Of a stretch of DNA of 64,000 nucleotides, positions 11,623-64,000 are shown one piece after another. The stretch comes from Polytrichum commune (Eukaryota > Streptophyta > Polytrichopsida > Polytrichales > Polytrichaceae), in contig OX485807.1 in the NCBI GenBank assembly GCA_950295325.1, forward strand, positions 26,755,666-26,819,665. The letters run 5' to 3'. A model generated the notes under the pieces. That model saw only the letters and a list, made by a program, of their open reading frames with translations, had not been told where the DNA came from and did not search any database. Position 1 is the stretch's first letter. Each line of letters starts with the position of its first letter. Position numbers and translations under genes: made by a program.

Positions 11623-13125
11623 CTACCTGTTGAAGTGGGCAAGGCGTGCCCGTCTCAACTCCTCTCTAGATCTCGGGGACAGTGACCTTCGCCTTCTCAC
11701 AGGCCAAGGTGGAGCTGATGGGGATGAGGTTTCAGCGGATTCCCTATCTTCCCTGCCACGGTATGTTCCACACATGTCACAGGCTTCAGCTGCTATAATG
11801 TTGTCATATGTACAACTCTGGCACCTCCAAACATCAGGTTCTGGCTGCTCATCCTGAATTCGTGAGGGATTTGCTATCCGGTGTGAGTCTCTTCTCGAAC
11901 CAACAACTCCCCTACCGTGAATCCTGCTTCTTGGTCCCCACAATGGCCAACCCAGGGCCCTTACAGGCCATGAGACAACAGAAATCAACCTTGGCATCAA
12001 CGACCACAAGCTAAGGCTGCTGGAAAGGACTCTTGGTGAACACATGTAGATAATTCCTGCGAAGATCCCACATAAGTGACCGAGGAAGGAGGTCCCCGGA
12101 ACAAACATCTGGATGATTATAAGCTCCACCCACGCGGCGTATCGTGAAGGCACCAGCACTCCATATACGTTTGTGTGACTTGGGGAGTTCCAGTTAAGTA
12201 CTACCTTCAATGCAAACAGGACGCCGGAGAAACCCACAGAGCATTCCGAGTAGAATGGGGTTGAAGTCTCTGTGAACATTGTCAGAAGCGTGGAGGATGC
12301 AACAACAAGGCTATGCGAGAGACCAAGGAGCACAGCCACCATGGTTGCGAACTTTTGGCTTCCCATGGCGCCCTCCAATTGCACACCCTTCCACATGAGT
12401 GAGATCATGTTGTACACCAGATGTGCTTCGTCAACATGGTAAAATGCAGATAACCACAACCGCTTCAAGTCCCAGTCCTGCATTCACAGGTGCCATAGAA
12501 TCACTTAATAACCATTGAAATATTCCCAAGATGACACTCAAGGTTTTCAATTCAAAGTTTGATGTCAAATCTCTGTGCATTCCTTTGGTGCTAACAGGAT
12601 AGGAGACTAGACTCGAAAACAGCATATCCAGGGTACTACGATTATGGTGTAATCAGCTGGAAGTGAGATGAAATCCATGCATCAACAAAAGATACATGCT
12701 TACGTACAATAGGGACATGGATAACCAATTCAGCTGTTCGCAAGATGACACTGGTGTTGTAGTAACTCTAGGTTTTCAATTCAAAGTTTGATGTCGATTC
12801 TCTGTGCATTTCTTTGGTGCTGACAGGATGGGTCAAGAGACTCAAAACAGCATGTCCAGCATACTACGACTATGGTGTGAGATGAATAAGACAAGGAGAG
12901 AAGTATACTTACCTTCAGAATAAAGTATGGATTGAGACAGACTTCATTTATAGTTGGAAGCACATCCTCAAGCTTGCCAGGTCGTAAGTGGATCAATGTT
13001 TGCAATGCTATTAGTGCCGCAGTTACTGGAGGCTTCCTAGGCAACTGGACGAATTTCGTCGCAGCATGCATTGCCAGCATATAAAGCATTCCATTTCCTT
13101 GCACGGGCCTCCTCCCTCTCGACAT
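11623..13125 (-). CDS. RBL14: Rhomboid-like intramembrane protease with C-terminal RanBP2 zinc finger (RBL14 type)
   Basis: Two exons: 13125-12913 (71 codons, ATG start) and 12477-11623 (284 codons plus stop), joined in phase 0 across a 435-bp intron with GTAAGT donor and TGCAG acceptor, giving 355 residues. The N-terminal part ends LNPYFILK. Exon 2 continues DWDLKRLWLSAFYHVDE and the rhomboid HxxxN-type region. The Ser of GFSG (around residue 155) and the His of GHLCGIFAG (around 210) form the expected catalytic dyad among several hydrophobic segments. Near residue 290, W.C..C...N......C..C is a complete RanBP2-type zinc finger, followed by an Arg/Ser-rich tail. Length and order match the plant RBL14 class, which is predicted to be mitochondrial. 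No premature stop is seen. The upstream GC-richer tract (13126-13450) probably holds the promoter and 5' UTR. Confidence 0.9.
12530..12890. repeat. Imperfect direct duplication within the rhomboid intron
   Basis: A block containing GGTTTTCAATTCAAAGTTTG, CTGTGCATT.CTTTGGTGCT and ACAGCAT.TCCAG..TACTACGA occurs at about 12530-12656 and again at about 12743-12889. The copies are perhaps 85-90% alike and separated by about 90 bp. They fill most of the intron. Confidence 0.75.
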
Positions 13126-33343: not shown

Positions 33344-35557
33344 TCAGTCTCGCGTGTTTCTCCAAATGTTGAAGATAGTAGCCCAATCCATTGCATCCAC
33401 TTCAAGCCCACAAAGAGAAACCCGCATAAGAGCATCAAGGGTCTTCAAGTTCAACCTATTGCGCAAGTGGCTTTTGATTGCATTTTGTTTGGAAAATCCT
33501 CTCTCACAAATAGCTATACTTGATGGAATGAGTATAATTTTTTGCCAAAGTTGCATAAGTTTAGGCCAATTTGTATGCCATTCCAAATTGCTACCACATA
33601 TGCGCCAAGCCTCAAATATTGTTTTGTTCTCACACTTATGTCGAAGTGTTTCCGTAAATTCCAAGAGTTCTCCCTTACACATGTCACTCTCTTCTTCAGT
33701 GTATTGAAACTTCAACAATATTCTTTCGAGCCACAATTCGGTATTTATGATTCGGTCACTATCATCGCTTGGATAATTACGAGGGCTGAAAAGTTTGGCC
33801 GCACTGAATATTGGAAGGTTTGGGAAACGATCGTTCAAAGCATGAACAACTCTTTGCACATAAGATGCACCCAACAATACACATTGTTGTAGTTCATTGG
33901 GCCCATCAGTTGCCAATGCATGAATAATACGATCTCCTGTATTATTTTCATAACTCAATTGAAGATTTTCTGCAGATTCTTTCAAGAATTTTCCCAAATT
34001 CTTGCTTGTACGACCAAACATAGGTCCATTCCCGGATAAAAAATGACGTGATAAAATTGAAATGGTGATATCGATGGTTGCACTAATAGTTGTGATATCA
34101 ACCATATCATACTGAAATTTGATATTCAATTTATTCAACTCTTGTAAAACATCCACAAGTAAGCTCAAATAAAAATGAAATTTGAAAGAACACATAATCT
34201 CATACCAATGTGGTTCTTCATCTCTGAACAATTCCAATAATGCCGGCATGCACTGTAGTAAGCGGGTCATAACATTACCTCGAGAAAGCCACCGTACTGT
34301 ATGAATTTGTAAAACCACTACATAATCTTCTTCAAATACATCTTTCAACAATCGTTTCAGCTCATTGCGTCGATTTGTACTACGGCCCACCCACTCATAA
34401 ACTTTGTTGGCAAAACGATCCAACATTTGAAAATCTGGAAAAGATCTAGCTGCATCTCCTGCAGCTAAAGCCTCACGATGTGCAATACAATGCACATTTA
34501 TGAAAGTTGGAACCTCTGCACGCATTCTAGCTGCTAGTCCTGTACGATGTCCCGTCATACTAGAAGCCCCATCAGCGGCTAGAGCTACTTGTTTTAGAGG
34601 CATCCAATGCATTTTCTCCAATAATCCAGTAACAACTTGATACATAGATTCAGCTGTACCATCTCGAAGAGCCAAAAGCTCAACAAATCTTGTAACATGA
34701 GGTCCTTTCCCATTATTTGATAAATAAACAACATAAACAATCAAATGTTGTTCAAGAGTTCGATCAGTGGCTTCATCAATCATCAAAGAAAAAAATGGAG
34801 AGGATTGCGCCTCTGATAAAAGTTTATCATTGAGATATTTTGAAATTGCCCATAAAAATTCCAATGCTGCATATCCTGAAGTATATGAACCATATTCATC
34901 ATTGACAGGCATATTTGGAGTTTGTAGTAGTGAAAGCAATTGGCATGTATCTTGATAAGTCAATATTGAACGATCATTCCATACTGTAAAATATAAAATT
35001 TTCATCACAGTGATGATTCTTGATTGTTCTCTATCTATCATGACATTCAGCCCTTGAATCACTGGAGGTGCATTTGCACGTTGAAGAAAATGTATATCCT
35101 CCCAACGAGTTACCGAATGTTTGTGATCAACACTCTTTTCATGAACCTTGACAGCTGATTTTTGTAAACTTTTGCAACCAATGCATGTCCCCCATCTGGA
35201 TTCAACACGCATTTCTTGGCAAGCAACGCATTTCATAAAACCTGTTGCTGGCCCATCATTTGGTCTATAATGTAATAACCATGGCCTACCAATTTTCCAT
35301 GAAGCCTTAAAAACTCTTCGATACCTTTGTTGATTGGGAATGACATGAGCAGGTTCTCGAATTACATCATTTCCAACATCATCATCTGATTGAGATTCAC
35401 TCTCATTATCCATGTTGAGAGAAAAAATTTCATGTTCAAATCCTGGAGTTTGTTGAGATGACTGAAATGAAGATTGAGAAGACACTCTTCCACCAAAAAT
35501 CTCATTCAAATTAAGTTGACGAGCTCTTCCACGGTTGTTGTTACTTCCAGAAGCCAT
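33344..35557 (-). CDS. hAT superfamily transposase, intact 737-codon ORF
   Basis: A single uninterrupted frame from ATG at 35557. A Cys/His zinc-finger-like region lies at about residues 105-150 (CVACQEM, C..C, then VDHKH). It is followed by MIDEATDR (first catalytic Asp region, about 260) and ALAADGASSMTG (second Asp, about 330). Next comes HCIAHREAL, the hAT-typical C/H..H motif. The C-terminal dimerisation region includes IPSSIAICERGFSKQNAIK near residues 680-700. This corresponds to the ZNF862/KIAA1586-like branch of hAT transposases. It would cut and rejoin DNA in the nucleus. No stop or frameshift is seen, so it may be young or domesticated. Confidence 0.85.
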   Translation of the reverse strand: MASGSNNNRGRARQLNLNEIFGGRVSSQSSFQSSQQTPGFEHEIFSLNMDNESESQSDDDVGNDVIREPAHVIPNQQRYRRVFKASWKIGRPWLLHYRPNDGPATGFMKCVACQEMRVESRWGTCIGCKSLQKSAVKVHEKSVDHKHSVTRWEDIHFLQRANAPPVIQGLNVMIDREQSRIITVMKILYFTVWNDRSILTYQDTCQLLSLLQTPNMPVNDEYGSYTSGYAALEFLWAISKYLNDKLLSEAQSSPFFSLMIDEATDRTLEQHLIVYVVYLSNNGKGPHVTRFVELLALRDGTAESMYQVVTGLLEKMHWMPLKQVALAADGASSMTGHRTGLAARMRAEVPTFINVHCIAHREALAAGDAARSFPDFQMLDRFANKVYEWVGRSTNRRNELKRLLKDVFEEDYVVVLQIHTVRWLSRGNVMTRLLQCMPALLELFRDEEPHWYEIMCSFKFHFYLSLLVDVLQELNKLNIKFQYDMVDITTISATIDITISILSRHFLSGNGPMFGRTSKNLGKFLKESAENLQLSYENNTGDRIIHALATDGPNELQQCVLLGASYVQRVVHALNDRFPNLPIFSAAKLFSPRNYPSDDSDRIINTELWLERILLKFQYTEEESDMCKGELLEFTETLRHKCENKTIFEAWRICGSNLEWHTNWPKLMQLWQKIILIPSSIAICERGFSKQNAIKSHLRNRLNLKTLDALMRVSLCGLEVDAMDWATIFNIWRNTRD

Positions 35558-35739
35558 ATGTTATGTCTGCAAAATAATTCAATTCTAATCATATAAATTT
35601 AATACACACATCAACAAACAACATTCAAATTTCATTCTTATCCAATAATAAGTCAGTGAAAATTCCCCTACAATATGTTTTCAAATTCACAAAGTCTTTA
35701 CATCATGAAAAGAATCCTGAACAATCTAATTTCAATGTG

Positions 35740-48312: not shown

Positions 48313-48990
48313 ATGGTTGTCTATCCCGACGTCATGACGGTGTCGTGCTGTCATGACGTGTTGTGTCGTGACGGACGCCTCCGTCACGACACAATAGGGT
48401 CCACGTAGGGTCAACCTAGGGGGAAGCTAGTAGGGTGGGTAAAATACTTACTTTCTTGCCAAGGTGGCGTCCTATGTGGCAGAAAAGGCCGACGTGGACG
48501 TGGATATGCCTAGCGCCAGGTAAACCATTTTGCCATTCTGTTTATCATTCTGTTAAAATCAAAGTAGTAAAATATGACTAAGGAGGGTGTGGGGCGGACA
48601 GGGGACGAGGGTGGGGGGGACGGGGGTGGGGGGTGGGCGTACGGGGGGAACGGGGCGTACGGGGGGGGGGGGGGGGGGGGGAAACGGAGCGGACGGGGGC
48701 GGGAACGGGGGCGGGAATAGGTGCGGACGGGGGGGGCGGACGGGGGGGGCGGACGGGCGCTAGTAATTTTTTCCCCACTTTACTTCTACTTTGCTGACAT
48801 GTCATCACACGTGGACATCTTACATCCTACGTGTCCGAAATGGGGTAATGTAATTACACACATAATTCAGTAAAATTCAAGTCCGTCAGGATAAAGACAG
48901 CATCCGCCATAATGTCGTGACGGATACGTGTCGTGACGGCACGACATTATGCCGAGATTAGCCTCCGTCACGACACAATAGACAACCTTG
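48313..48990. mobile_element. Mutator-like MITE with probable 9-bp target duplication
   Basis: Ends GGTTGTCTAT (48315) and ATAGACAACC (to 48987) are inverted repeats. The flanks GTCGCGCCC (48304-48312) and GTCGCCCCG (48991-48999) look like a 9-bp duplication with two changes, and removing the element restores the exon frame. Near the left end is a perfect 15-bp palindrome, TTGTGTCGTGACGGA against 48380-48394, with a 4-nt loop. CCTCCGTCACGACACAATAG appears at both ends. The interior includes a G-rich tract. No coding capacity. Confidence 0.75.
48588..48752. repeat. G-rich tract with an uninterrupted run of about 20 G
   Basis: The plus strand is almost pure G with ACGG and GGGT interruptions, including a long G run at about 48661-48681. 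It has strong G-quadruplex potential. Sequence accuracy is likely to be poor here. Confidence 0.85.
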
Positions 48991-50131
48991 GTCGCCCCGA
49001 ACAGGAGAAGTGGGGGTGGTCCCCGCTTTACCGCATTTTCAAGGAATGGCCCCTGCCCAACTTCCAGAAATCTCCTTGGACACACACGCAGAATGAATGG
49101 GTGGAGTTAGAGAAAGCTTTGTTGGAAAATGTCAGTACTGAGCCGCTCTCCCTTGAACTAGAGTGTCCCCATATCGTGCGGGCTTTCCTGTTGTTGTTCA
49201 GGACATTACATGGTCGCACTCGTCCTCTTCCTCATCCTGACGCAGGTCTTACTTTGGACTACATTATAGACTATGCGGTGGACAATGAGAAATCTGTTGC
49301 ATTAACAAAAATAGTGCATAACTTAGCTGCAACAGGATGGGCTTTATTTCCAGGCATTCAATCTGTGGTTGATAACTACAGCAATCTCCATTCGGACACA
49401 GTTGCCCTACTTGGTTACGAGCCCAAGAAGCAAGTAGCAGTTGTTGAGAAGATTAGAGCATTCATTGGGAGAGTAGCACATAGGGTTGTCTCTGACATGG
49501 TTAGGCTGCAGCGATCTTCTGAGCTCGAAGACATGTGGTTTGCAGACAACGTCACTGAGCATCGTAGAACACTGTGTGACGAGGTACGCCCTAACCAATT
49601 GTCCTTCATATGATAAACAACTCTACGTACATGTCTTCTTATTGTCTTTTATGGTATCTCCTCTGTTTAATTCACTCACTTACATCTCATTCTGGTTTCA
49701 CTTGCAGGTTTTGTGTTCAGCAATGTTAGTTCGCGAGGATGCAGACATTGGATCGGTTGTTGTTGGCGACATCTACAAAAAAAGTACCTGTGCACAATTG
49801 CGGCTGGGTGATGCGATTGATGCACTGACAACATTGCGTCGCACGCAACTGAGCTTGTTGTACACTGCTATGGGACTTCAAGAACCCACGGACGACATTG
49901 CTGAGGACGTGGCAGTTACACACAAATTACTCGGTGAGTTACACACGTCTATCCAGGAGCATGGCAGGCATAATCCCAAGGGTTTTGTTGCAGAAGTACA
50001 AGATGCTATGCAGTTGGAATTACCTAGTTATGTTCCTCCCTCGTCACAAACCCACATGGGAGGGCCTGACAGCACCACCGAGGACATGACTGAGTCCCAG
50101 AAGGGAGTTGCCCTTACGCCAGTGAAGACAG

Positions 50132-51104
50132 TGTCGCGCACCTCTCCATGAGGAGTGGCCGAAACACCATGGGCACAAGGGGGACCCCGGAGTGACACCC
50201 GGGACTTGTGGCGCCGTTGGTGAGAGGGCCCAAGTGATCCTAGTGTGGGTGAGGGCCCCGGGCGTTGGGAACGCCTCCCACCCACAAAGACTAGGAGGCA
50301 TGAGGGTGAGGCCATAAGCTATGCGTAGCTCATGGCGTGGTGATTCTAGAATGCTCAAGATCACCTCAATCGGAGGTGTGAGCTAGGAGTTATGGCCATT
50401 TGAGTGGGGTGCTGTCCCGGGACAGCGCCCTGGTGCAGCAGTGCCTGGGAGTGATTCCCGGGACTGCCAAGGTTCAAACAGGCATAACTTCCTCAAGACT
50501 TGCCCGAATGGGGCAAGCGAGGAGTCCATCGGCATCTACGTGAAGCGTAGATGAGGATGGAGCGGTTGGTTGTTATGATCAGACATCATACAAGGAAGTT
50601 ATGATGGTCTGAAGCTGCTGGGGGGGTTCTAGGCCCAGCAGCTAAGGGAAAATGTCCACTTGGCCCCAACTCTTGGTAGAGAGACAAGAGGTTGGTTGGC
50701 GGTGGGGTAGGGGCTCCGTGTAGAGTCCTAGAGGCTTATATGGGTGAGGTGGTGTGGCCTCACCCACCCGAGGCCGAACGGCAAGGCCTCCATGGGCATT
50801 GGCCCATTGTGAGGCCATAGTTGCCTAGTATGGTTCGGGTTGTTGTAGTGTTGCTCCGGCAACGCGATGATCAACATAGGATTGGACTTCCATGGATGGA
50901 AGTCCACATTGGGGAAATGGGTTACCGATTAAGGGGTGAGTCCCGAAAGCAAAGTAGGAGGGTTGGTTCCCTCCTATGAACTATTGGTCCGGGGTAAGAG
51001 GAGCTATCCATTAGCATGGCGGAATGCGAAGGGTTAGCGCTCGTAACCTTTGCTAGAAACGAAAATTGGCAAGATTATTAAGGGACCTAGCAAGGGTTGC
51101 GACA
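50132..51104 (+). mobile_element. Solo LTR, 973 bp (family copy 1)
   Basis: Starts TGTCGCGCACCTCTCC and ends GGGTTGCGACA, with the 5-bp duplication GACAG at 50127-50131 and 51105-51109. No internal retrotransposon sequence is attached, so it is a solo LTR left by recombination. It sits in an exon of the 41.8-kb gene; the reading frame continues exactly across the site once the LTR and one GACAG are discounted. A TATA-like CTTATATGGG lies near 50738. Confidence 0.85.
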
Positions 51105-51482
51105 GACAGTCTCAATCGACGCACCTCTTTCACCCGACGGACTGCTTTGCTCAATGCACGCAAAGTCACCGTGTACACCTACTGACTTGAACAACAGGTC
51201 AACAAATGGGCCTTGGTTTCAGAGGACGCCAACTTTGTCCCATACGACTGGAACTCCGGCAGTGTTTGTCACACGCAAGTTGGAATTACCACCTAATCCC
51301 ACGTTTGGCCGCGATCCCGAGTTATCTTCCACGGAGCGAGCAGGTGCGAAGGACCTGAGTTGTGTTTCCGAACTTGTCGAAGGGATTGGCGAAAAGCGAA
51401 CGAAGCGCAAGGTGTCAACACCAGCAGTGGACAACAATCAGGATGATGTCATTTCCAGAATGACACAACAAGCTGATGGCAG

Positions 51483-51734
51483 GTAAGGGTTTAGGGTTTA
51501 GACATCAGTGTCCTTCAATGGTGTCCTTCGAGGAATGTTATTCTGTGAGCGGTGAGCAGTAAGTGATAACTTCCACAGTTTTTAGAAATTTTGTATTGAA
51601 AATAAAGCCTTATAATCAAGACTAGAGCAAGAATTTGAGAACTTTTGAGCTCTATGACCGCGGTTTTCACTGAAAACTTGAAAGTTTTAGAACACAATTT
51701 TTATTAAAGGGGCCTATATCCGTGACAATTCCTG
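51483..51734. other. Short AT-rich spacer between the zinc-finger-like gene and the pectinesterase fragment
   Basis: Contains GGGTTTAGGGTTTAG after the last donor site and a TGTCCTTCGAG motif also seen near 40430 and 42160. Nothing coding. Confidence 0.4.
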
Positions 51735-52196: not shown

Positions 52197-52806
52197 TATA
52201 AGGTTTGTAGAGTGGGAATGGGTCTCGGATGGTTACAGGTTGTCATTTGAGGTGGACTAAATCCCAGTTGGAGAAGGCCTCGGATCCGAGGCCTCATGGC
52301 TGCGGTATCATTTCAGATTGGGTATAAGGTTTGTAGGTTGGGAATGGGTCTCCGATGCTTACAGGTTGTCATTTGAGGTGGACTAAGTCCCACTTGGACA
52401 AAGCCTCTGATCCGAGGCCTCATGGCTGCGGTATCATTTCAGATTGGGTATAAGGTTTGTAGGTTGGGAATGGGTCTCCGATGCTTACAGGTTGTCATTT
52501 GAGGTGGACTAAGTCCCACTTGGACAAAGCCTCTGATCCGAGGCCTCATGGCTGCGGTATCATTTCAGATTGGGTATAAGGTTTGTAGGTTGGGAATGGG
52601 TCTCGGATGCTTACAGGTTGTCATTTGAGGTGGACTAAATCCCACTTGGACAAGGCCTCGGATCCGAGGCCTCATGGCTGCGGTATCATTTCAGATTGGG
52701 TATAAGGTTTGTAGGTTGGGAATGGGTCTCGGATGCTTACAGGTTGTCATTTGAGGTGGACTAAATCCCACTTGGACAAGGCCTCGGATCCGAGGCCTCA
52801 TGGCTT
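52197..52806. repeat. 126-bp tandem array, nearly five copies
   Basis: Units start TATAAGGTTTGTAG at 52197, 52323, 52449, 52575 and 52701. Each contains GGTTGTCATTTGAGGTGGAC and the palindromic CCTCGGATCCGAGG or a variant. Copies are very similar, so expansion is recent. Confidence 0.95.
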
Positions 52807-52859
52807 GAGCCCCTACATTCTGATTGTGTTTAAAGGGTGTAGCTACATTCAACCCGACT

Positions 52860-54020
52860 CCATAAATTTGAAGTCGAATCATTGGTTTCAATTTGGGTCT
52901 CTTAGATTTCATGTTCGGTCTCGGCATGGCCACTTTGGACAAGGCCTAGGGGTTTTATTTCTGATTTGAGGTCAAGTTTATCGCTTCGTGTTGAATGTAG
53001 GCATGCCATGTTTGGGTTTCATGCTTAGCTACTTTCAACCTGAAGCCATAAATTTGATATCAAATCATTGGTTTAAATTTGGGTCTCTTAGATTTCATGT
53101 TCGGTCTCGGCATGGCCACTTTGGAAAAGGCCTAGGGGTTTTATGTCTGATTTGAGGTCAAGTTTATGCTTTCCGGTTGAATGTAGGCATGCCATGTTTG
53201 GGTTTCATGCTTAGCTACTTTCAACCTGAAGCCATAAATTTGATATCAAATCATTGGTTTCAATTTGGGTCTCTTAGATTTCATGTTCGGTCTCGGCATG
53301 GCCACTTTGGAAAAGGCCTAGGGGTTTTATGTCTGATTTGAGGTCAAGTTTATGCTTTCCGGTTGAATGTAGGCATGCCATGTTTGGGTTTCATGCTTAG
53401 CTACTTTCAACCTGAAGCCATAAATTTGATATCAAATCATTGGTTTCAATTTGGGTCTCTTAGATTTCATGTTCGGTCTCGGCATGGCCACTTTGGAAAA
53501 GGCCTAGGGGTTTTATGTCTGATTTGAGGTCAAGTTTATGCTTTCCGGTTGAATGTAGGCATGCCATGTTTGGGTTTCATGCTTAGCTACTTTCAACCTG
53601 AAGCCATAAATTTGATATCAAATCATTGGTTTCAATTTGGGTCTCTTAGATTTCATGTTCGGTCTCGGCATGGCCACTTTGGAAAAGGCCTAGGGGTTTT
53701 ATGTCTGATTTGAGGTCAAGTTTATGCTTTCCGGTTGAATGTAGGCATGCCATGTTTGGGTTTCATGCTTAGCTACATTCAACCTGAATTTATAAATTTG
53801 ACCTCAAATCATTGGTTTCAATTTGGGTCTCGACATGCCCAACGGCTTAGATTTCATGTTCGGTCTCGGCATATATGGCCACTTTGGACAAAGGCCTAGG
53901 GGTTTGTTGTTTGATTTGAGGTCAAGTTGATAGCTTCAGGTTGAATGAGGGCATGCAATGTTTAGGATTCATGCTTAGCTACATTCAACCTGAATCTATA
54001 AATTTGACCTCAAATCATTG
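52860..54020. repeat. 186-bp tandem array, about six copies
   Basis: CATGTTCGGTCTCGGCATGG recurs at 52910, 53096, 53282, 53468 and 53654 (exactly 186 bp apart) and as a diverged copy near 53854. The middle copies are almost identical. It directly follows the 126-bp array but is unrelated in sequence apart from FGG/CTCGG-type words. Confidence 0.95.
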
Positions 54021-54655
54021 GTTTCAGGTTGAGTCTCGGCATGCCAAGTGGTTCATATGTCATGCGGGAGTGGCCACTTTGGATATGGCCCCGAATTTCT
54101 TGGGGTTTGATGTTTGATTTGAACATAAAACATAGGATGATGTCCATAATTTATGCACAAGCATTTTTTGGGTTATTCCATTCTTCTTCCAATCTATATT
54201 CTCATTTTTTAATTCTTCCATTCTTCTTCCAGTGTATCTTCTTATTATTTGTAATTCTAAAAATCGTATTGATATTCTATACTTATTATCTTTAATATTT
54301 TGGTTTAGTTGTTCGGTTTAGTTTTCCTTAGTCTTTGTTTCATGTTTTGATCTATATTTTTACAACTACATTTCTTTATCTTTTTTAGTTAACCTCTATG
54401 TCTTATTGAAGAATAGAGTGGAAGTTGGGTTTAGGGTACACTTTTCGTTGGTGTACACTTTAGTCAACTTGTAGACCATTGTGTAAGATAGGTGTGCATC
54501 TCATATCATTGTTGAACATACTCATGTAGAGGTATTAGAAAACACACTTGAATGCCAAGTTACATGAGGTGACACTAATGGTTTAGGGTCATTTATTCAA
54601 CACAACATTCGCCTAACAAATCGCAAGCAATCATTGAAAAAGTGTACGAATGCGT
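54021..54655. other. AT-rich spacer at the 3' end of the methyltransferase-like gene
   Basis: No gene. It should contain the minus-strand gene's polyadenylation region. Confidence 0.4.
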
Positions 54656-56201
54656 TCACTCCTCCTCATCACACTGAACAACTTCTAGATCTAGAAAACT
54701 CAAGCCTCTACGAGACAGAGAACGGGAGCGCGAAGTGGGATTCCGTATGCCCTCAGTTGCAAAACAAAAAGCGATTTCTTCGGCATATGTAGGCAACTCA
54801 AAGGGTTTAGGAGGGCTTGGGAAAAATGTCGGCCTACAAAAAAAAGGTCGATGCTGTGGAGAAATCAGGATCTCGCACCTGCAAAACGAAAGCCGAAATA
54901 AGAAGTGACAACAAAAAGAAGTAGCATAAATCAACATGATCTCAATAGAAATGCATACTTGAACGTTTAGACTTACTTACTGAATCGGGATTTCTTCACG
55001 ATCCGCTCAACTTCAATTTCCTCGCCATCAATGTCATCCACGATGGTGAGTGGATCTAGGTGAGGAGGCGAAAGAGCAGGTGAAGCCCGGATGAGGGGTG
55101 CCAGTAAGGCCTTGAAGATTTCCTCATCCGGCTCAAACGCGGCAATATGTCGGTTGATATTGCGACAAGCGTGTATGGACGACCCTAGAGAAGTGAAGAT
55201 GATTTAGGTGTTAAGTGAATGTACAAATAAAATTAAGTTGAAACCTTGAGGAAAATAAACTGAGACTGAGTAGGGTTTAGGTTGAGAAAACGAACCAGTG
55301 GCTGCAGTGTAGTCAACCATGAGATCCCCAGGAAAGGTAGACGCTTCTATAAGCATCTGCATGAGCAAGACGGACTTCTCCCGAGGGCCTCACCAAGGCA
55401 AATTGCCATTCATGAGCTGATCATCTTTCGTGACCAGGTTCATGAGGATGTCATCTCTGGCAACGTCTACTCCGTGGTGGTCAAGAGCAGGAATTGGCTG
55501 AAAAGAAAATGTAGAATTGGGAACCCCTGAAAGACTCCTCACCGCCAAACAGATGCCAAATCTCATGGTCTGGCATTCGAACAACAATATTAGACAAGAA
55601 TGACAATGTCCATGGATAATCAAATCATGTGTGAAGATCCTTAATGTCAAAACCGAATCAGAACACAAGACATAGTTTTGAACTTACAGTGGATGTCGGA
55701 TGTACTGCCGATGTCAAATGCAGACGGTTCATCCCCCACCACTCCTTGCGGATTTCAAATCCGTAGGACTTGCAGTATCCAAGTATGTTTGACTTTGTGC
55801 TCAATCGAAAAGGATGAATGATGATGAGTGCACCACCATCCTGGAGGTGTTGGTCGGCAAAATAAAAAATGGGCTCCAGCCATTCCTTAGAATCCTGGTT
55901 CCATAAGGGCACAGATGAAATAGGGTTCGAAATACCTGGAATTGGGAGACCTTCTGGTTGGTCCACAAGGATCAAATCCACACAAGGGTGGTTTCCAGAA
56001 GATCCTTTGTGCGCACGCCTTTTATCAGATGAATGCTGCTAAATGAGCAATTCAATGCATGTAAGAAACGTAACAATTTCAAAAGCAAACAGAAATGGAG
56101 AACTAAACACTACCAGTTGTAAAACATAACCACATCAGATGGGCAAATGAGAATAAAGATACCTTAGAAATAAAAGCTTTGAGGTCATCATAGAGGGGTG
56201 T
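54656..56201 (-). pseudogene. Beta-class amino-methyltransferase-like gene, broken
   Basis: Minus-strand exons read 56201-56163 (continuing beyond the LTRs at 58170), 56038-55688, 55497-55296, 55184-54977 and 54878-54656 (stop), with good splice borders. The second holds VDLILVDQPEGLP, in the place of the DPPY catalytic motif IV, then FADQHLQDGGALIIIHPF. The third and fourth hold GDLMVDYTAATG/SSIHACRNINRHIAAFEPDE, which has the D..AG.GS..AC....R..GFE.DE form of motif I. Motif IV before motif I is the beta-class order of N4-cytosine and N6-adenine methyltransferases. DQPE instead of DPPY, an in-frame TGA at 55392-55390 and the LTR interruption argue against activity. Substrate and origin are unknown. 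Confidence 0.6.
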
Positions 56202-57174
56202 TGTCGCAACCCTTGCTAAGCCCCCTTGACAATCTTGCCAATTTTCTTTCTAGCAAAGGTTACGAGCGCTAACCCTTCGCATACCGCCATGCTAATGGTT
56301 AGCTCCTCTTACCCCGGACCATTAATTCAAAGGAGGGGAACCAACCCTCCTACTTTGCTTTCGGGACTCATCCCTTAATCGGTAACCCATTTCTTGGATG
56401 TGGACTTCCATCCATGGAAGTCCAATCCTATGTTGATCGTCGCGTTGCCGGAGCAACACTACAACAACCCGAACCATACTAGGCAACTATGGCCTCACAA
56501 TGGGCCAATGCCCATGGAGGCCGTGCCGTTCGGCCTCGGGTGGGTGAGGCCACACCACCTCACCCATATAAGCCTCTAGGACTTTACACGGGGCCCCTAC
56601 CCCACCGTCAACTAACCTCTTGTCTCTCCACCAAGAGTTGGGGCCAAGTGGACATTCTCCCTTAGCCGCTGGGCTAAGAAGCCTCTAGCAGCTTCAGACC
56701 ATCATAACTTCCTTGTATGATGTCCGAGGCTAGCAACCAACCACTCCATCTTCATCTACGTTTCACGTACATGCCGATGGACTCCTCACTTGCCCCATTT
56801 GGGCAAGTCTTGAGGACGTTATGCCTCTTTGAACCTTGGCAGTCCCGGGAGTCACTCCCAGGCACTGCTGCACCAGGGCGCTGTCCCGGGACAGCGCCCC
56901 ACTCAAATGGCCATAACTCCTAGCTCACACCTCCGATTGAGGTGTTCTTGAGCATTCTAGAATCACCACGCCATGAGCTACGCATAGCTCATGGCCTTAC
57001 CCTTGTGCCTCCTAGTCTCCGTGGGTGGGAGGCGTTCCCAACGCCCGGGGCCCTCACCCACACTAGGATCACTTGGGCCCTCTCACCAACGGCGCCACAA
57101 GTCCCGGGTGTCACTCCGGGGTCCCCCTTGTGCCCATGGTGTTTCGGGCACTCCTCATGGAGAGGTGCGCGACA
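56202..57174 (-). mobile_element. LTR, 973 bp, inverted (family copy 2)
   Basis: Reverse complement of the 50132 element: reads TGTCGCAACCC at its left edge and ends GGTGCGCGACA. It is nearly identical to copies 1 and 3. The flanks (GGTGT on the left, CTCAC on the right) do not match, so it has no target duplication. Confidence 0.85.
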
Positions 57175-57198
57175 CTCACCCCCACCAAACGGAGTCGA

Positions 57199-58169
57199 TG
57201 TCGCGCACCTCTCCATGAGGAGTGCCCGAAACACCATGGGCACAAGGGGGACCTCGGAGTGACACCCGGGACTTGTGGCGCCGTTGGTGAGAGGGCCCAA
57301 GTGATCCTAGTGTGGGTGAGGTCCCCGGGCGTTGGGAACGCCTCCCATCCACGAAGACTAGGAGGCACAAGGGTAAGGCCATGAGCTATGCGTAGCTCAT
57401 GGCGTGGTGATTCTAGAATGCTCAAGAACACCTCAATCGGAGGTGTGAGCTAGGAGTTATGGCCATTTGAGTGGGGCGCTGTCCCGGGACAGCGCCCTGG
57501 TACAGCAGTGCCTAGGAGTGATTCCCGGGACTGCCAAGGTTCAAACAGGCATAACTTCCTCACCACTTGCCCGAATGGGGCAAGTGAGGAGTCCATCGGC
57601 ATCTACGTGAAGCGTAGATGAAGATGGAGTGGTTGGTTGCTAGCCTCGGACATCATACAAGGAAGTTATGATGGTCTGAAGCTGCTGGGGGCTTCTAGGC
57701 CCAGCGGCTAAGGGAAAATGTCCACTTGGCCCCAACTCTTGGTAGAGAGACAAGAGGTTGGTTGACGGTGGGGTAGGGGCCCCGCGTAGAGTCCTAGAGG
57801 CTTATATGGGTGAGGTGGTGTGGCCTCACCCACCCGAGGCCGAACGGCACGGCCTCCATGGGCTTTGGCCCATGGTGAGGCCATAGTTGCCTAGAATGGT
57901 TCGGGTTGTTGTAGTGTTGCTCCGGCAATGCGATGATCAACATAAGATGGGACTTCCGTAGATGGAAGTCCACATCGAAGAAATGGGTTACCGATTAAGG
58001 GGTGAGTCCCGAAAGCAAAGTAGGAGGGTTGGTTCCCCTCTGAATTATATGGTCCGGGGTAAGAGGAGCTAACCATTAGCATGGCGGTATGCGAAGGGTT
58101 AGCGCTCGTAACCTTTGCTAGAAAGGAAAATTGGCAAGATTGCTAAGGGGGCTAGCAAGGGTTGCGACA
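57199..58169 (+). mobile_element. Solo LTR, 971 bp (family copy 3)
   Basis: Same orientation as copy 1, with the 5-bp duplication GTCGA at 57194-57198 and 58170-58174. Only 24 bp separate it from inverted copy 2, forming a near-perfect palindrome of almost 2 kb. It lies in an exon of the methyltransferase-like gene: the minus-strand frame upstream (58170-58230, GVPTTSIVDEGID) leads into TPLYDDLKAFISK at 56201-56163. Confidence 0.85.
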
Positions 58170-58174
58170 GTCGA

Positions 58175-58984
58175 TGCCCTCATCGACTATACTCGTAGTC
58201 GGCACACCAATTCTCAAGTTGCCATCCTCTATGGCGCGGCATTGTGTTTACCTTAGGGCGCGACCCCCACAATGCATCTTCAAATTTGGCATAGTCCCAA
58301 AGGTGTCGTTCCTAGGTGGTCCGTTAGCGACCTTGGATCTCTCCTCCAAGGACCTAATCTACACTAGACCCACCTACTTTGGGACTCACTTGGGTTGCCC
58401 CTCCTTTGGGGCCTCCCCCGTTAGGCTCCACTAGCCTAACATGACACATCTAGGCGAGACCTCAACGCTTCCACTAAGTTGTCTCGGTTGCAACTCCGAG
58501 ATGGCTTTCCATTGTTAAGCCACGCCTCGATCGCACGGGGGTGATGCCAAGTCCCGCCCGACTCGGTTCCCACTTTGCTCTTTCGAGACATGGGTTCATG
58601 ACTCCCATGCGCCAACTTTCGTTAGCTCGCGGGTAGCACTTTTATGAGCACGCGCCATCACCTTGTCCCCGCCCGGACAAGCCCACAACTAAGAAGTTTC
58701 TTGGTTTTATCCAAGGCCCCTCCAAGCCATGGCCCCCAATTACTCGGCTTACCCAACCTAGTTTGGCATATCTATTCCCCCTCTTCCAGATAGATATGAA
58801 CACCTGCCCCCTTTTGAAGGGCCGGCGTGAATAGAGTGTCTGTTCGTCTCGTCAATGGGCCAGAGCCCACAGGACAAAGGGCCATTGAGTCAAGACTACT
58901 TTCCCCTTTCGGGAATAGACACTTTAGTAACTGAGGATGGGTACTAGTACCCTTAGTAGTGTTGATTTGTCGTATGGGTATTTA
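58175..58984. other. Unassigned stretch
   Basis: The first 60 bp or so on the minus strand look like the continuing exon of the methyltransferase-like gene. Beyond that the sequence is GC-richer and has no coherent frame, so it may belong to another repeat. Confidence 0.35.
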
Positions 58985-59299: not shown

Positions 59300-62200
59300 T
59301 TAGTCTGGGGGTATGGGTTGGTTGTTTTCTATTTTCCTTTTATGTAGAATAATTGATCCGGCATGTTGTATGGCAATGGTGTTGATTTCCTTGAATGTGT
59401 GTTTAATGGTGGTTTCTGGTATTTTGAAATTTGTCTCAAGGAATTTTATTGAGGGGATGTGGGTTGTGCCTCTAGCTCCTGCTGTTATGACTATGAGTGG
59501 GTCGACTTTCCAACCTAAGTCTGCAATGTTATTTATTAGGGGTTGGTATTTCTAGATTTTGTTTGTAATTGTTTCTTGTGGAAATCTGTCGTTACAATAC
59601 GTGAATTCAATGAATTGTATTGTGAGGTTGTCTGATGGGTTTGGTGGTGGGTTGGTATTGTGTGGGTGACCTTTTACGCATAGGATGTCTGGTTTAAATC
59701 TGGCATTACAGTGACATCTTTGTTGTACACATGAGCATGCTAATAGCCATGGGGGTACTGTATTTTCTTGGGAGTTATTATTAAATGTTCCTGCGTTCAT
59801 GAGGATGTAGCATCTTGATTTTTCTGATGATAAGATTAGTTTTCTTAATTCCCATACTGCTTTGTTATGTCTTTTCACTCTTATGGCGTGGATGTGGTGG
59901 TGGTTGCATTTCAGCAGTACGTGAAGCCATGTGTCCGCATCTTCAGAGTTACATATAGAGCATGTTATTGAAGGGAATCTTTCTCTTCCAAAAAATAGTT
60001 GTTTTCTTGCATTGCCCATGTATTGACCGGTGCGGAATTTTAATATATTAGTTTTTTGTGCATCTGTGATCATTGGGTTGTGCCAAAAAGCATTGGATAA
60101 TTCATTATCAATGTCTAGGTTTCTAGTCCATTTGCTGATATTGGGGAATTGGTTTGTCATGATTTCAATGTTATTTTCTTGGTCGTGTTTAGTTAGATAT
60201 GTTTGTAGGCATCTCACAGGACCTTTATCTGGTCGTTTTATAGGACCTGGCCATATGTCTTTTTGAAAATAGAATGGTGTAGTGTGTGCATGCTCGTATG
60301 ATTTTGAAGAGATGGAGTATATTTTTTTGGTTCCAATTTTTGCAAGTTTGTCTGCTTGTTCATTTCCTGCAATGTTAATGTGTGCTTTGACTTTGTGAAA
60401 TGTGGTGGGTTGGGTGCGGGTTTTTAATATTTCTACCATGTTTGTTAAGATTGTTTTGTCTGCATGGTTATTGTGCATGGTAGGGTGTTTGATGTGTGTG
60501 TTTAGGTTATATAGGCAATTGAGGCAATCTGTAAATATATGTGCAGGTTCGTTTGGGTATTTAGTAGATATTAATTTGAGTGTTTTGTGGATGGCCATTA
60601 GTTCTGCTCGGAAGCATGTTTGTAGCCCTGGTAGTCTTTTCGAGATTTGTATGTCTATCTTGGTTGAATTGTATATTCCGTATCCGGCTTTTTCTTTTTT
60701 CCAATGTCTATTAGTTTTTTGGGTGGGAGGTATGAAGGAGCCATCAGTATAGTAGCAGTGTTGTGGTTGAAATTTGATTGTGGTGTTTGTTACAAAGTTT
60801 GGAAGTGATGGTGTGTTAAGTGTGCTTTGGTAGGTTGCGGGCGGGTATATGAGTTTGTTCCATTTTTTACTTTTGTTGATTGGTGTGTTATGCGGGGTGG
60901 GTGGGGCGTTATGGAGGTAGTATTGTGGGATTTGTAGGTTTTCAAGTATTGTTTTGAGTGTATCCATTTGGTGGGATGTCCCAATATTTTGGTTTTGATG
61001 GTGTATACATAAGATTTGTATTGCAAGTGGCTCTGTTTTCGGTTTTTGTCTGTCTTGGGGGATTGTTGGTTCTTCATATGTGATTGTGTCTGCAGCAAAG
61101 TGGGTGATGACGTGTGTATCTGGGAATGGTCCAATATACGGTGAGGGGTCTTGGTACCAGTTTATGTGTGGTATTACTACTATAGTGATGGTGTTTGGGT
61201 CATTTTTGGCTGCTAATCTCGCCCAGTGGATTGCTTGTTGGACTGTTTCTTCATTATGTGGATGAGCGTAGCCTATCCCTTTCCATTTATATTGGAAAGC
61301 GGTTCCTAGTGCTCCGAAGACTTTGTCTCTTGCGAAAGGGGAGTAGAATTTTGAAATTTGTGTTGAGCATGTTACTGGTGAGGAAAAGTAGGAGTGTGAG
61401 ATATTGAAAGTGTTTATGAGGGAGTCTATTATATTTGTTGGCAAGGTATGTAGTGTTGTTTTTGTTGAGCCATTTTTGGGGATTTTACTTTTGTATCTTT
61501 GGTAGAGCCATACTATTTCTTTTTCAAATGTTTGTGTTTGTGGTACTAGTCCATGTGAGTTGTATCTTGCTTTATTGTATTGTTGCCATAGCCAATTTAA
61601 TCTGGTTGTTGGTATGCTGATAAGGTGTCTCCCAGTATCCTCGTATATGTGGGTTTGCTCATTATGTATTTGTATGGTATCCTTATTGGTAAGGATGTCT
61701 TTTTCTGGGTTACACTCGTGTATGAATATTTGTGTGAGTGCTATAGTCGTGGCTGGGGGGATGAATCTTGTATCTCTATTTTGTTCAGGGGTAAAATGTG
61801 TATTCAAAATTGTTTTAAAATGTGCATGTTGTAGTTTTGTATAGTAATCTGTGAGTAGTGTAAGGTTATGCGCGATGACTGTTGGGTGGTTGAAAGGGAA
61901 GAGTTCTCTTTGTGGTATCCATTTGTGGTATATAATATTGTTTTCGAGAGTCCATTGACATAAGTATGTGGTGAATTTCTTTGTTATTTTGTATTTGTCT
62001 TTTATGATGTTTGTTTTATGGTCTATTATTATGTGTATGTTGAATTTTATGGGGTTGTTTTTTACGTTTTGGGGTGGGTTTGGGTAGAGCTGTTGCTGTG
62101 GGTTTGGGGATTGGGGTGGATTGTTTGGTGCTCTTGGTATTAAGTGTTGGTTGTTTGAAATGTATTTTGGTTTAAGCGTACGGGCGGGTGGGTGTCTTGT

Positions 62201-62572
62201 ACATGGATTTGGGCAGTTTGGTGTGCAACTTAGGTGACAAAACAATTGTTCGGCTATTTGAAGTGCGCTCTTTTCTAATTTGGATGGTGCTTTATAGTAG
62301 GTTTTGAAGTCGTCTGGTGTTATAAGGGTTGTGCCGTTGGGGAGGGTGATGTGTTGTATTTTGTAGATGTTATGGATTAATAGTTTATGTAGGAGTTTGA
62401 GTGATAGGTCAGGGTTGAGATGTGGGAGTTCATTTGTAGCTTGTGTACGCCATTCTTGTTCTAACTCTGTTGCATGTAGTAGGAAGTTTTCATTTGTGCT
62501 TTTGAGGTGAATTCCTCCGGCAGTTTTTAGGAGGAATAATGTACGTATAGTCGGTGATCTGATGCAATCGTG
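59300..62572 (-). pseudogene. LINE RNase H and C-terminal region, separated from RT by an in-frame stop
   Basis: In frame with the reverse transcriptase. A 500-residue linker includes FYSPFARDKVFGALGTAFQY and YAHPHNEETVQQAIHWARLA, which form a distinct domain. RNase H follows with all four acidic residues: YYTDGSF, FRAELMAIHK, IFTDCLN and GNEQADKLA, plus the KVKAH histidine. A CSICNSEDADTWLHVLLKC segment is the zinc-knuckle-like motif of many LINEs. After TAG at 59554-59552 the same frame continues 83 codons (WKVDPLIVITAGARGTTHIP) to TAA at 59302-59300. That conserved-looking tail suggests the TAG is a mutation. Confidence 0.82.
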
Positions 62573-64000
62573 TTATGTTATTCTTGGGATTTCTTCTGCG
62601 CCGCCGTACTTAGCTAGTATGTGGTGTATGAGTCCTTTATATATTGTTCCTAGTCTTCCTTGATCGTTAAGTGCGTTTTTTAATGAGAAGGCCTCTAGGC
62701 CAAAGAGTTCGTGGGGTAATTGTGTTATTACATTTGCTATGCATTTTGGTAGTCCGCATATTATTTTTTGGATTCCTATAATTTTTTTATCTAGTTTTTT
62801 GATAGTTGGGAGTGAGTATGGAACTGCATAGAAACTGTATGCTATACCTGCTCTGATGACTGTGTCGACCATACTGATTTTCTGTTTAATTGTGGCAGGA
62901 CATTTGGTTAGTTGTTTGCATTGGTGAATTATTTTGTTTGTGGTGATGTGTGTTTGGAGTTTCCATTTTAGTGAGGGTACTAGTTGAATGCCTAGATATA
63001 CATATGGTTCGTTTTGGTGTAGAACGGGAATTAGTTGGTTTCTGTAAGCTATGTTGTGATTTTGTATTTGGTTTTTGAATTTTTCAGGGTTTAGTTTGGA
63101 TTTGTTGGGACAACCTGTAATGGCATATTTTTGTACACCTAAGTCCATTCCCGCCCATTCACAAAATTTATCTAGTTTGTTTAGTTGTGTTTGTATCGAT
63201 TGGAGATTGTTTGTTATTGCGGCGAGGTCATCTGCGTAAGCTGCAGAGCTAATGGTTAATTTTGATGTGCCGAATGTGTACCCGTTTTTGCCTCTTTGTA
63301 GCCATCTAAGTAGTGGTTCAAGAAATATTAGAAATAAGTATGGACTTAGGGTGTCGTCTTGGATGGTACCTCTTTGAATGGGTATTGGTTTTGTTTTGCC
63401 GAAGTGTTCGCCGGTAAATATAGTAGTAGAGTGTGCGTAGATATTTCCAATTAGTGTTACTGCATCTAGTGGGTAGCCCAGGTCTTTCATTATAGCTAAT
63501 AGTCTAGCGTGGTCAAGGGAGCCGAATGCATTTTTGAAATCTATGTATAGGAGGTATATGTTTTGGTTTGTAAATCTAGCATCTTCCAAGGCTGCTATGA
63601 GTAGTTGTAGTTGTCGAGATGTGCTTCTTTCTGCTCTGAATCCTTCTTGACTGTCGTGCAGTATTTGGTATTTTTCACCATATGCTGATAGTATTAGCGT
63701 TAGTGTGCTGGTGAATAGTTTGTAGATTGTATTTGCAAGTGCTATGGGTCTGTGGTTTGTTAGTAGTGATGGGTCTCCTTTTTTGTATAAAAGTATGGTT
63801 AGACTTGTTTTCCATGATGCTGGTATTTTTTTGTTTGTAGCAATGTGTGAAAAATAGGAGTAGCATTTTATGAAATTTGTCAGGCATATTTTTTAGAATT
63901 GAGTTTGGAATTCTGTCTGGGCCTGATGCTTTATTGTTGGAAAGGTGTTTTAAACATAAGTCGTATGTTTCTTGGTCGAAGTACTTATATAATGGTATTT
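62573..64000 (-). pseudogene. LINE reverse transcriptase domain (partial, frameshifted)
   Basis: Fingers region NNKASGPDRIPNSIL reads in another frame from the window edge to a poly-A run near 63830. It then continues as PASWKTSLTILLYKKGDPSL and SQEGFRAERST. Motif A is YIDFKNAFGSLDH. Motif B-like is QRGTIQDDTLSPYLF. Motif C is AAYADDLA, with the catalytic YADD at 63238-63227. It ends at TAA 62575-62573, but the same frame stays open downstream. It copies LINE RNA into DNA at nicked target sites in the nucleus. The 63589 position sometimes taken as a start is TTG, not a real start. Confidence 0.85.

Follow-up and report, generated by a model that had tools for sequence, protein, structure and literature searches.

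Reports of bacterial-type amino-methyltransferases exist for a few eukaryotes, including bdelloid rotifers and Marchantia, in which the enzymes deposit 4mC (PMC8885841, PMC8566409). The bdelloid enzyme, N4CMT, is a bacterial permuted N6_N4_MTase residing in a eukaryote; it clusters with phage methyltransferases according to its authors, contains a chromodomain and is active with the tetrapeptide SPPY (PMC8885841). The Marchantia proteins MpDN4MT1a/b are presented as active, sperm-specific 4mC methyltransferases (Walker et al. 2025, as cited; PMC8885841, PMC8566409, PMC12344493). Among the literature matches listed, no title or abstract deals with a plant family of this methyltransferase kind other than the Marchantia work, which is not proof of absence, and a 'DNA methylase' match to the Ceratopteris genome paper (PMC9477723) was discarded, the passage being concerned with C5-cytosine CMT genes.

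Here we describe a gene in a 64-kb stretch of Polytrichum commune DNA (the window) that appears, like N4CMT, to be a bacterial permuted N6_N4_MTase inside a eukaryote, and that differs from the rotifer enzyme in reading DQPE instead of SPPY and in having no Pfam chromodomain match (exons A to D joined, with the tail scanned as an ORF). It can be likened to MpDN4MT1a/b, by description and not by sequence, as a putative bacterial-type amino-methyltransferase in a land plant, whereas those proteins are cited as active and sperm-specific and the present DQPE gene is broken. On balance, we read the locus as what is left, at the 3' side, of a disabled nuclear gene for a beta-class amino-methyltransferase, from a lineage in which catalysis had been lost or altered by the time this copy broke.

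Exon structure and the broken 5' side

Spliced exons on the minus strand, with a motif IV-like segment followed by a motif I-like one, had been proposed in the first-pass annotation, and both the positions and the motifs proved correct. Five exons are delimited here. Exon A (56201-56163) ends in ...TPLYDDLKAFISK, is in phase with exon B and has a GT donor; its true start is undefined, its 5' end abuts an LTR-like repeat, and it is too short for a homology test. Exon B (56038-55688) carries motif IV, VDLILVDQPEGLP, within which the tetrapeptide DQPE (55963-55952, minus strand) replaces DPPY, or more generally D-x-P-Y, together with the catalytic half that follows motif IV. Exon C (55497-55296) contains the motif X-like PREKSVLLMQMLIE and the start of motif I, and is covered by the Pfam PF01555, PHROG and PDB DpnA matches described below. 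Exon D (55184-54977), to which the Pfam and DpnA matches also apply, holds the remainder of motif I and the motif II-like AFEPDEE, so that GDLMVDYTAATG with SSIHACRN...AFEPDE spans the C/D exon junction. Exon E (54878-54656) encodes a C-terminal tail outside the methyltransferase domain, including the stop codon, and shows no similarity to the methyltransferase profile (hhalign score 9.7).

The four introns (124, 190, 111 and 98 nt) are all GT-AG with compatible phases, and their GC content is 33-38% against 48% in the exons (mean over the three codon positions). Bacterial contamination was rejected because of these phase-consistent introns and because LTR-like repeats, a LINE and a hAT-like ORF surround the gene. 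Joined, exons A to E form a 340-codon frame with a normal terminal stop, no frameshift and a single internal stop, the TGA already annotated, at 55392-55390 on the minus strand; 5000 mononucleotide shuffles of the joined letters contain 15.3 stops on average and never fewer than 3. A short intron hiding the TGA was rejected by eye, as it would be only about 16 nt long.

Upstream, LTR-like repeat a (56202-57174, minus strand) adjoins exon A and has no matching target-site duplication, and repeat b (57199-58169, plus strand), flanked by GTCGA on both sides, is inverted relative to it and about 95% alike. The earlier claim that two LTRs split an exon thus stands as regards the two real, inverted LTR-like copies; the three frames read for an upstream exon or coding half beyond them contained no segment attributable to the gene, and the split itself is a plausible reading. 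The present copy is broken, since its TGA lies ahead of motif X and the motifs for AdoMet binding and its 5' part is not recognisable. It probably yields no full-length product.

The single TGA, the unrecognised 5' part and the adjoining LTR-like insertions would also suit the decay of a plant amino-methyltransferase of the usual, active sort (with DPPY or SPPY, perhaps MpDN4MT1-like), in which DQPE, the ATG of motif I and the TGA are all products of drift once constraint had gone. We regard this explanation as rather doubtful; it is opposed by a frame of 340 codons that is otherwise open and free of frameshifts, and by part of the simulations described in the last section.

Relationship to phage and bacterial enzymes

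The methyltransferase similarity proposed in the first-pass annotation is borne out by profile searches of the joined exons. The spliced protein passes the cut-off of Pfam N6_N4_Mtase (PF01555; 29.7 against 26.7 bits, E 8e-7) with a match confined to residues 164-219, three methyltransferase families are found at E 3.2e-6 or better among the seven PHROG families listed, and DpnA is matched in the PDB (E 1.2e-5), all of these matches resting chiefly on motifs X and I. NCBIfam gives matches only far under cut-off (CcrM, 18.9 bits against 830). With tblastn at E 0.01, matches are obtained in 83 of 50,697 phage records and in 7 of 72,556 plasmid records; the best phage row is Proteus phage T2-2, aligned with residues 4-192 of the 237-residue query and showing 24.8% identity, with its coverage listed as 80% while the same search tallies 0 records at 80% or more.

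Comparison of the whole domain with five phage methyltransferases from the tblastn matches gives 98.4% in hhalign. Exon B alone scores 40.9 against the profile of these five, which was built from the query's own best phage matches, whereas none of 200 shuffles exceeds 25.4, and its own ORF tops the 164 ORF pieces of the window (41.2, with the runner-up at 19.4). When exon B is aligned with 20 viral rows, D21, D26, P28, G30, P76 and F77 are invariant. The structure predicted for exon B with 20 viral rows is of low confidence (pLDDT 55), insufficient for a structure-based search.

Both the alignments and hhalign place the motifs in the order IV, X, I, i.e., that of the permuted beta class, and the exon B test agrees with the early assignment of motif IV ahead of motif I. 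The same order is seen in the phage and bacterial enzymes of this class (PF01555; DpnA, CcrM and the Proteus phage T2-2 DNA methylase), with which the gene shares PxxK(P/S)V..LM, GD..(V)D(F/Y)T, AC.N.NR and the motif II glutamate, as well as PF...SNI after motif IV. It differs from them in DQPE for D-x-P-Y, in ATG for GSG, in a TRD region far shorter than that of its relatives, in its spliceosomal introns and in its extra C-terminal tail. Judged by these alignments, the gene is homologous to N4C/N6A DNA methyltransferases of the phage and bacterial N6_N4_Mtase kind, and the ancestral protein would have had the beta-class (IV-X-I) amino-methyltransferase fold of such enzymes.

No prokaryotic donor is visible among 35 scattered loci, the best of which shows 44% identity over 55 residues; a search of viral contigs with the protein alone yielded 10 stretches that fitted a pattern, of which 0 were confirmed as close relatives; and in a tree of relatives the plant row sits on a saturated branch (about 10) without a supported placement.

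A second C-terminal tail and the surroundings

A further version of this tail, sharing 37.5% identity with exon E, lies at 51966-51799 on the minus strand (tblastn E 1.9e-4 within the window). Differences between the two tails number 21, 23 and 33 at the three codon positions over 52 codons, which hints at past constraint. From this similarity, the second copy is most simply taken as the remnant of a paralogue, and it hints that this genome harbours a small family of, at the least, such tails; the tail of the ancestral protein would then have been common to at least one paralogue. Two adjacent tandem arrays with periods of about 126 and 186 bases (52197-54045) occupy the interval between the tail copies.

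The nearby second tail and the surroundings rich in transposable elements also speak for a methyltransferase-carrying mobile element, perhaps together with a plus-strand gene at about 48.9-51.5 kb, in which case the tail at 51966-51799 would belong to a second copy of the element. We consider this unlikely: within the 64-kb window, where the gene's 5' end is out of view, neither terminal repeats nor a target-site duplication nor a transposase could be linked to it, and none of the exon ORFs of the plus-strand gene, searched singly, reaches a Pfam cut-off. That apparent multi-exon gene extends over 48921-51486, one of its exons is interrupted by a solo LTR-like repeat (50132-51104) with GACAG on both sides, and one exon compared with phages gave no match.

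Elsewhere in the window, a hAT-like transposase ORF of 738 residues is open at 33344-35560 on the minus strand, with zf-C17orf113 and Dimer_Tnp_hAT above the Pfam cut-off, and a rhomboid protease domain at 11623-12483, also on the minus strand and accompanied by a RanBP-like zinc finger under the cut-off, probably marks a host gene. This rhomboid-type gene, the introns and the repeats are all in keeping with plant DNA. Rfam and tRNA scans of the 64-kb window gave no match.

A LINE-like element at about 59.2-63.9 kb (59552-63892, minus strand) comprises a reverse transcriptase ORF, one in-frame stop and then an ORF of 1006 residues. Residues 339-469 of the latter (61558-61166) match PCIF1_WW in Pfam (E 8.7e-12, 45.4 bits against a cut-off of 31.1) and precede an RNase H domain (E 2.3e-14). 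The PDB match to PCIF1 (6irv) is weak, at E 0.013 for the whole ORF and 0.0016 for the segment, and a single-sequence fold of the segment (pLDDT 38.5) is too poor for a fold search. At the position of NPPF in PCIF1 the element reads HPHN, and a cap-methyltransferase-like domain lacking the catalytic motif thus seems, from these matches, to reside inside a retrotransposon; the literature matches listed include no paper on a PCIF1-like domain in such an element.

The catalytic tetrapeptide and the order of events

The DQPE of exon B aligns with the DPPY of relatives, and it is read from a single copy, the catalytic half being present once in the window, which makes DQPE at best a candidate family trait. 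For comparison, the tetrapeptide was read without any motif IV filter in the best 80 of 174 confirmed viral relatives from an IMG/VR scan, a set that is partly biased because one of the two patterns used covered motif IV and accepted Y or E, and in 35 prokaryotic loci from a genome scan with patterns of motifs X and I only. Motif IV is legible in 71 of these best 80 viral relatives and is D-x-P-Y in all of them (41 DPPY, 16 DLPY, 12 DIPY, 1 DVPY and 1 DMPY); in the other 9 the ORF starts past the site, is too short or is broken. It is likewise D-x-P-Y in each of the 29 prokaryotic loci with a legible site, of which 28 were read by script (13 DPPY, 8 DIPY, 6 DLPY and 1 DMPY) and one, L112, by eye as DPPY; the 6 without a legible site include L111, a truncated ORF with a chance NRPH. 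All 100 legible sites of the two samples, which include some near-identical loci, consequently carry Y at position 4.

Position 2, by comparison, is P, I, L, V or M among the relatives sampled, and the unusual change in DQPE is therefore that of Y to E, the P to Q replacement appearing from the alignments to be a smaller departure. The altered tetrapeptide reported in the first-pass annotation is thus confirmed, with the correction that the change at position 4 is the one that counts. DQPE does not match the active-methyltransferase signature [DNS]-x-P-[YFWH]. Stacking on the flipped base is the usual role of the motif IV aromatic residue, and an acidic residue in its place should block amino-methylation. 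Motif I, set against the pattern D-x-F-x-G-x-G, reads DYTAATG for DFTMGSG, with D and the last G retained and the first G replaced by A (GSG to ATG), which makes AdoMet binding uncertain; with this glycine changed, that function may have been lost too.

Motif IV D and the second P, motif I D and motif II E are retained, as are several further positions in the AdoMet-binding half. The first four would be in keeping with an active enzyme whose catalytic site has changed from Y to E for a new substrate. Such an enzyme is highly improbable, considering the invariant Y in all legible relatives of both samples and the report that rotifer N4CMT no longer makes 4mC once its SPPY is mutated to APPA (PMC8885841).

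Neutral decay was simulated with assumed mutation and indel rates, and the figures are a guide only. Among the 1820 accepted runs, all ending free of frameshifts and with a single stop, the aromatic residue was lost in 45, a loss that drift can thus produce, and E arose in none, nor did E together with a non-hydrophobic residue at position 2. Dropping the no-frameshift condition raises the number of losses to 1390 of 15779, which is more favourable to simple decay, with E in 6 of 15779 and the combination of E and a non-hydrophobic position 2 in 0 of 15779. In a separate simulation with a different ancestor set, at least two tetrapeptide changes were seen in 6 of 482 accepted runs, and joint loss of P2 and the aromatic residue in 0 of 482. 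Since both changes occurred in 0 of 1820 neutral runs, which argues against decay of an ordinary enzyme, DQPE probably arose before the TGA under this model. This order speaks for a lineage whose catalysis was dead or altered, and the gene may descend from enzymes that were already no longer methylating.

Our preferred reading is, hence, of a lineage that would have lost or changed catalysis prior to the breakage of the present copy. More tentatively, the locus could be a recently broken member of a domesticated methyltransferase family of the plant lineage, phage-type and beta-class, in which catalysis was lost (DQPE, ATG), the fold was kept, the C-terminal tail was gained and the proteins became DNA- or partner-binding. 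METTL14, which reads EPPL, is a non-catalytic subunit for METTL3. Subunits of this type combine an altered catalytic tetrapeptide with a kept fold, as the present gene appears to do; they belong to the MT-A70 family, a different clade, and the functional likeness is by analogy alone. Intact members of the lineage, if any, would by the same analogy most likely be non-catalytic DNA- or partner-binding subunits.

Bacterial-type amino-methyltransferases taken up by eukaryotes would, if a plant member lacking this aromatic residue is borne out, be imports that can also become pseudoenzymes. PF01555 matches in plant genomes should therefore be viewed with caution, as they are not by themselves evidence for 4mC or 6mA.
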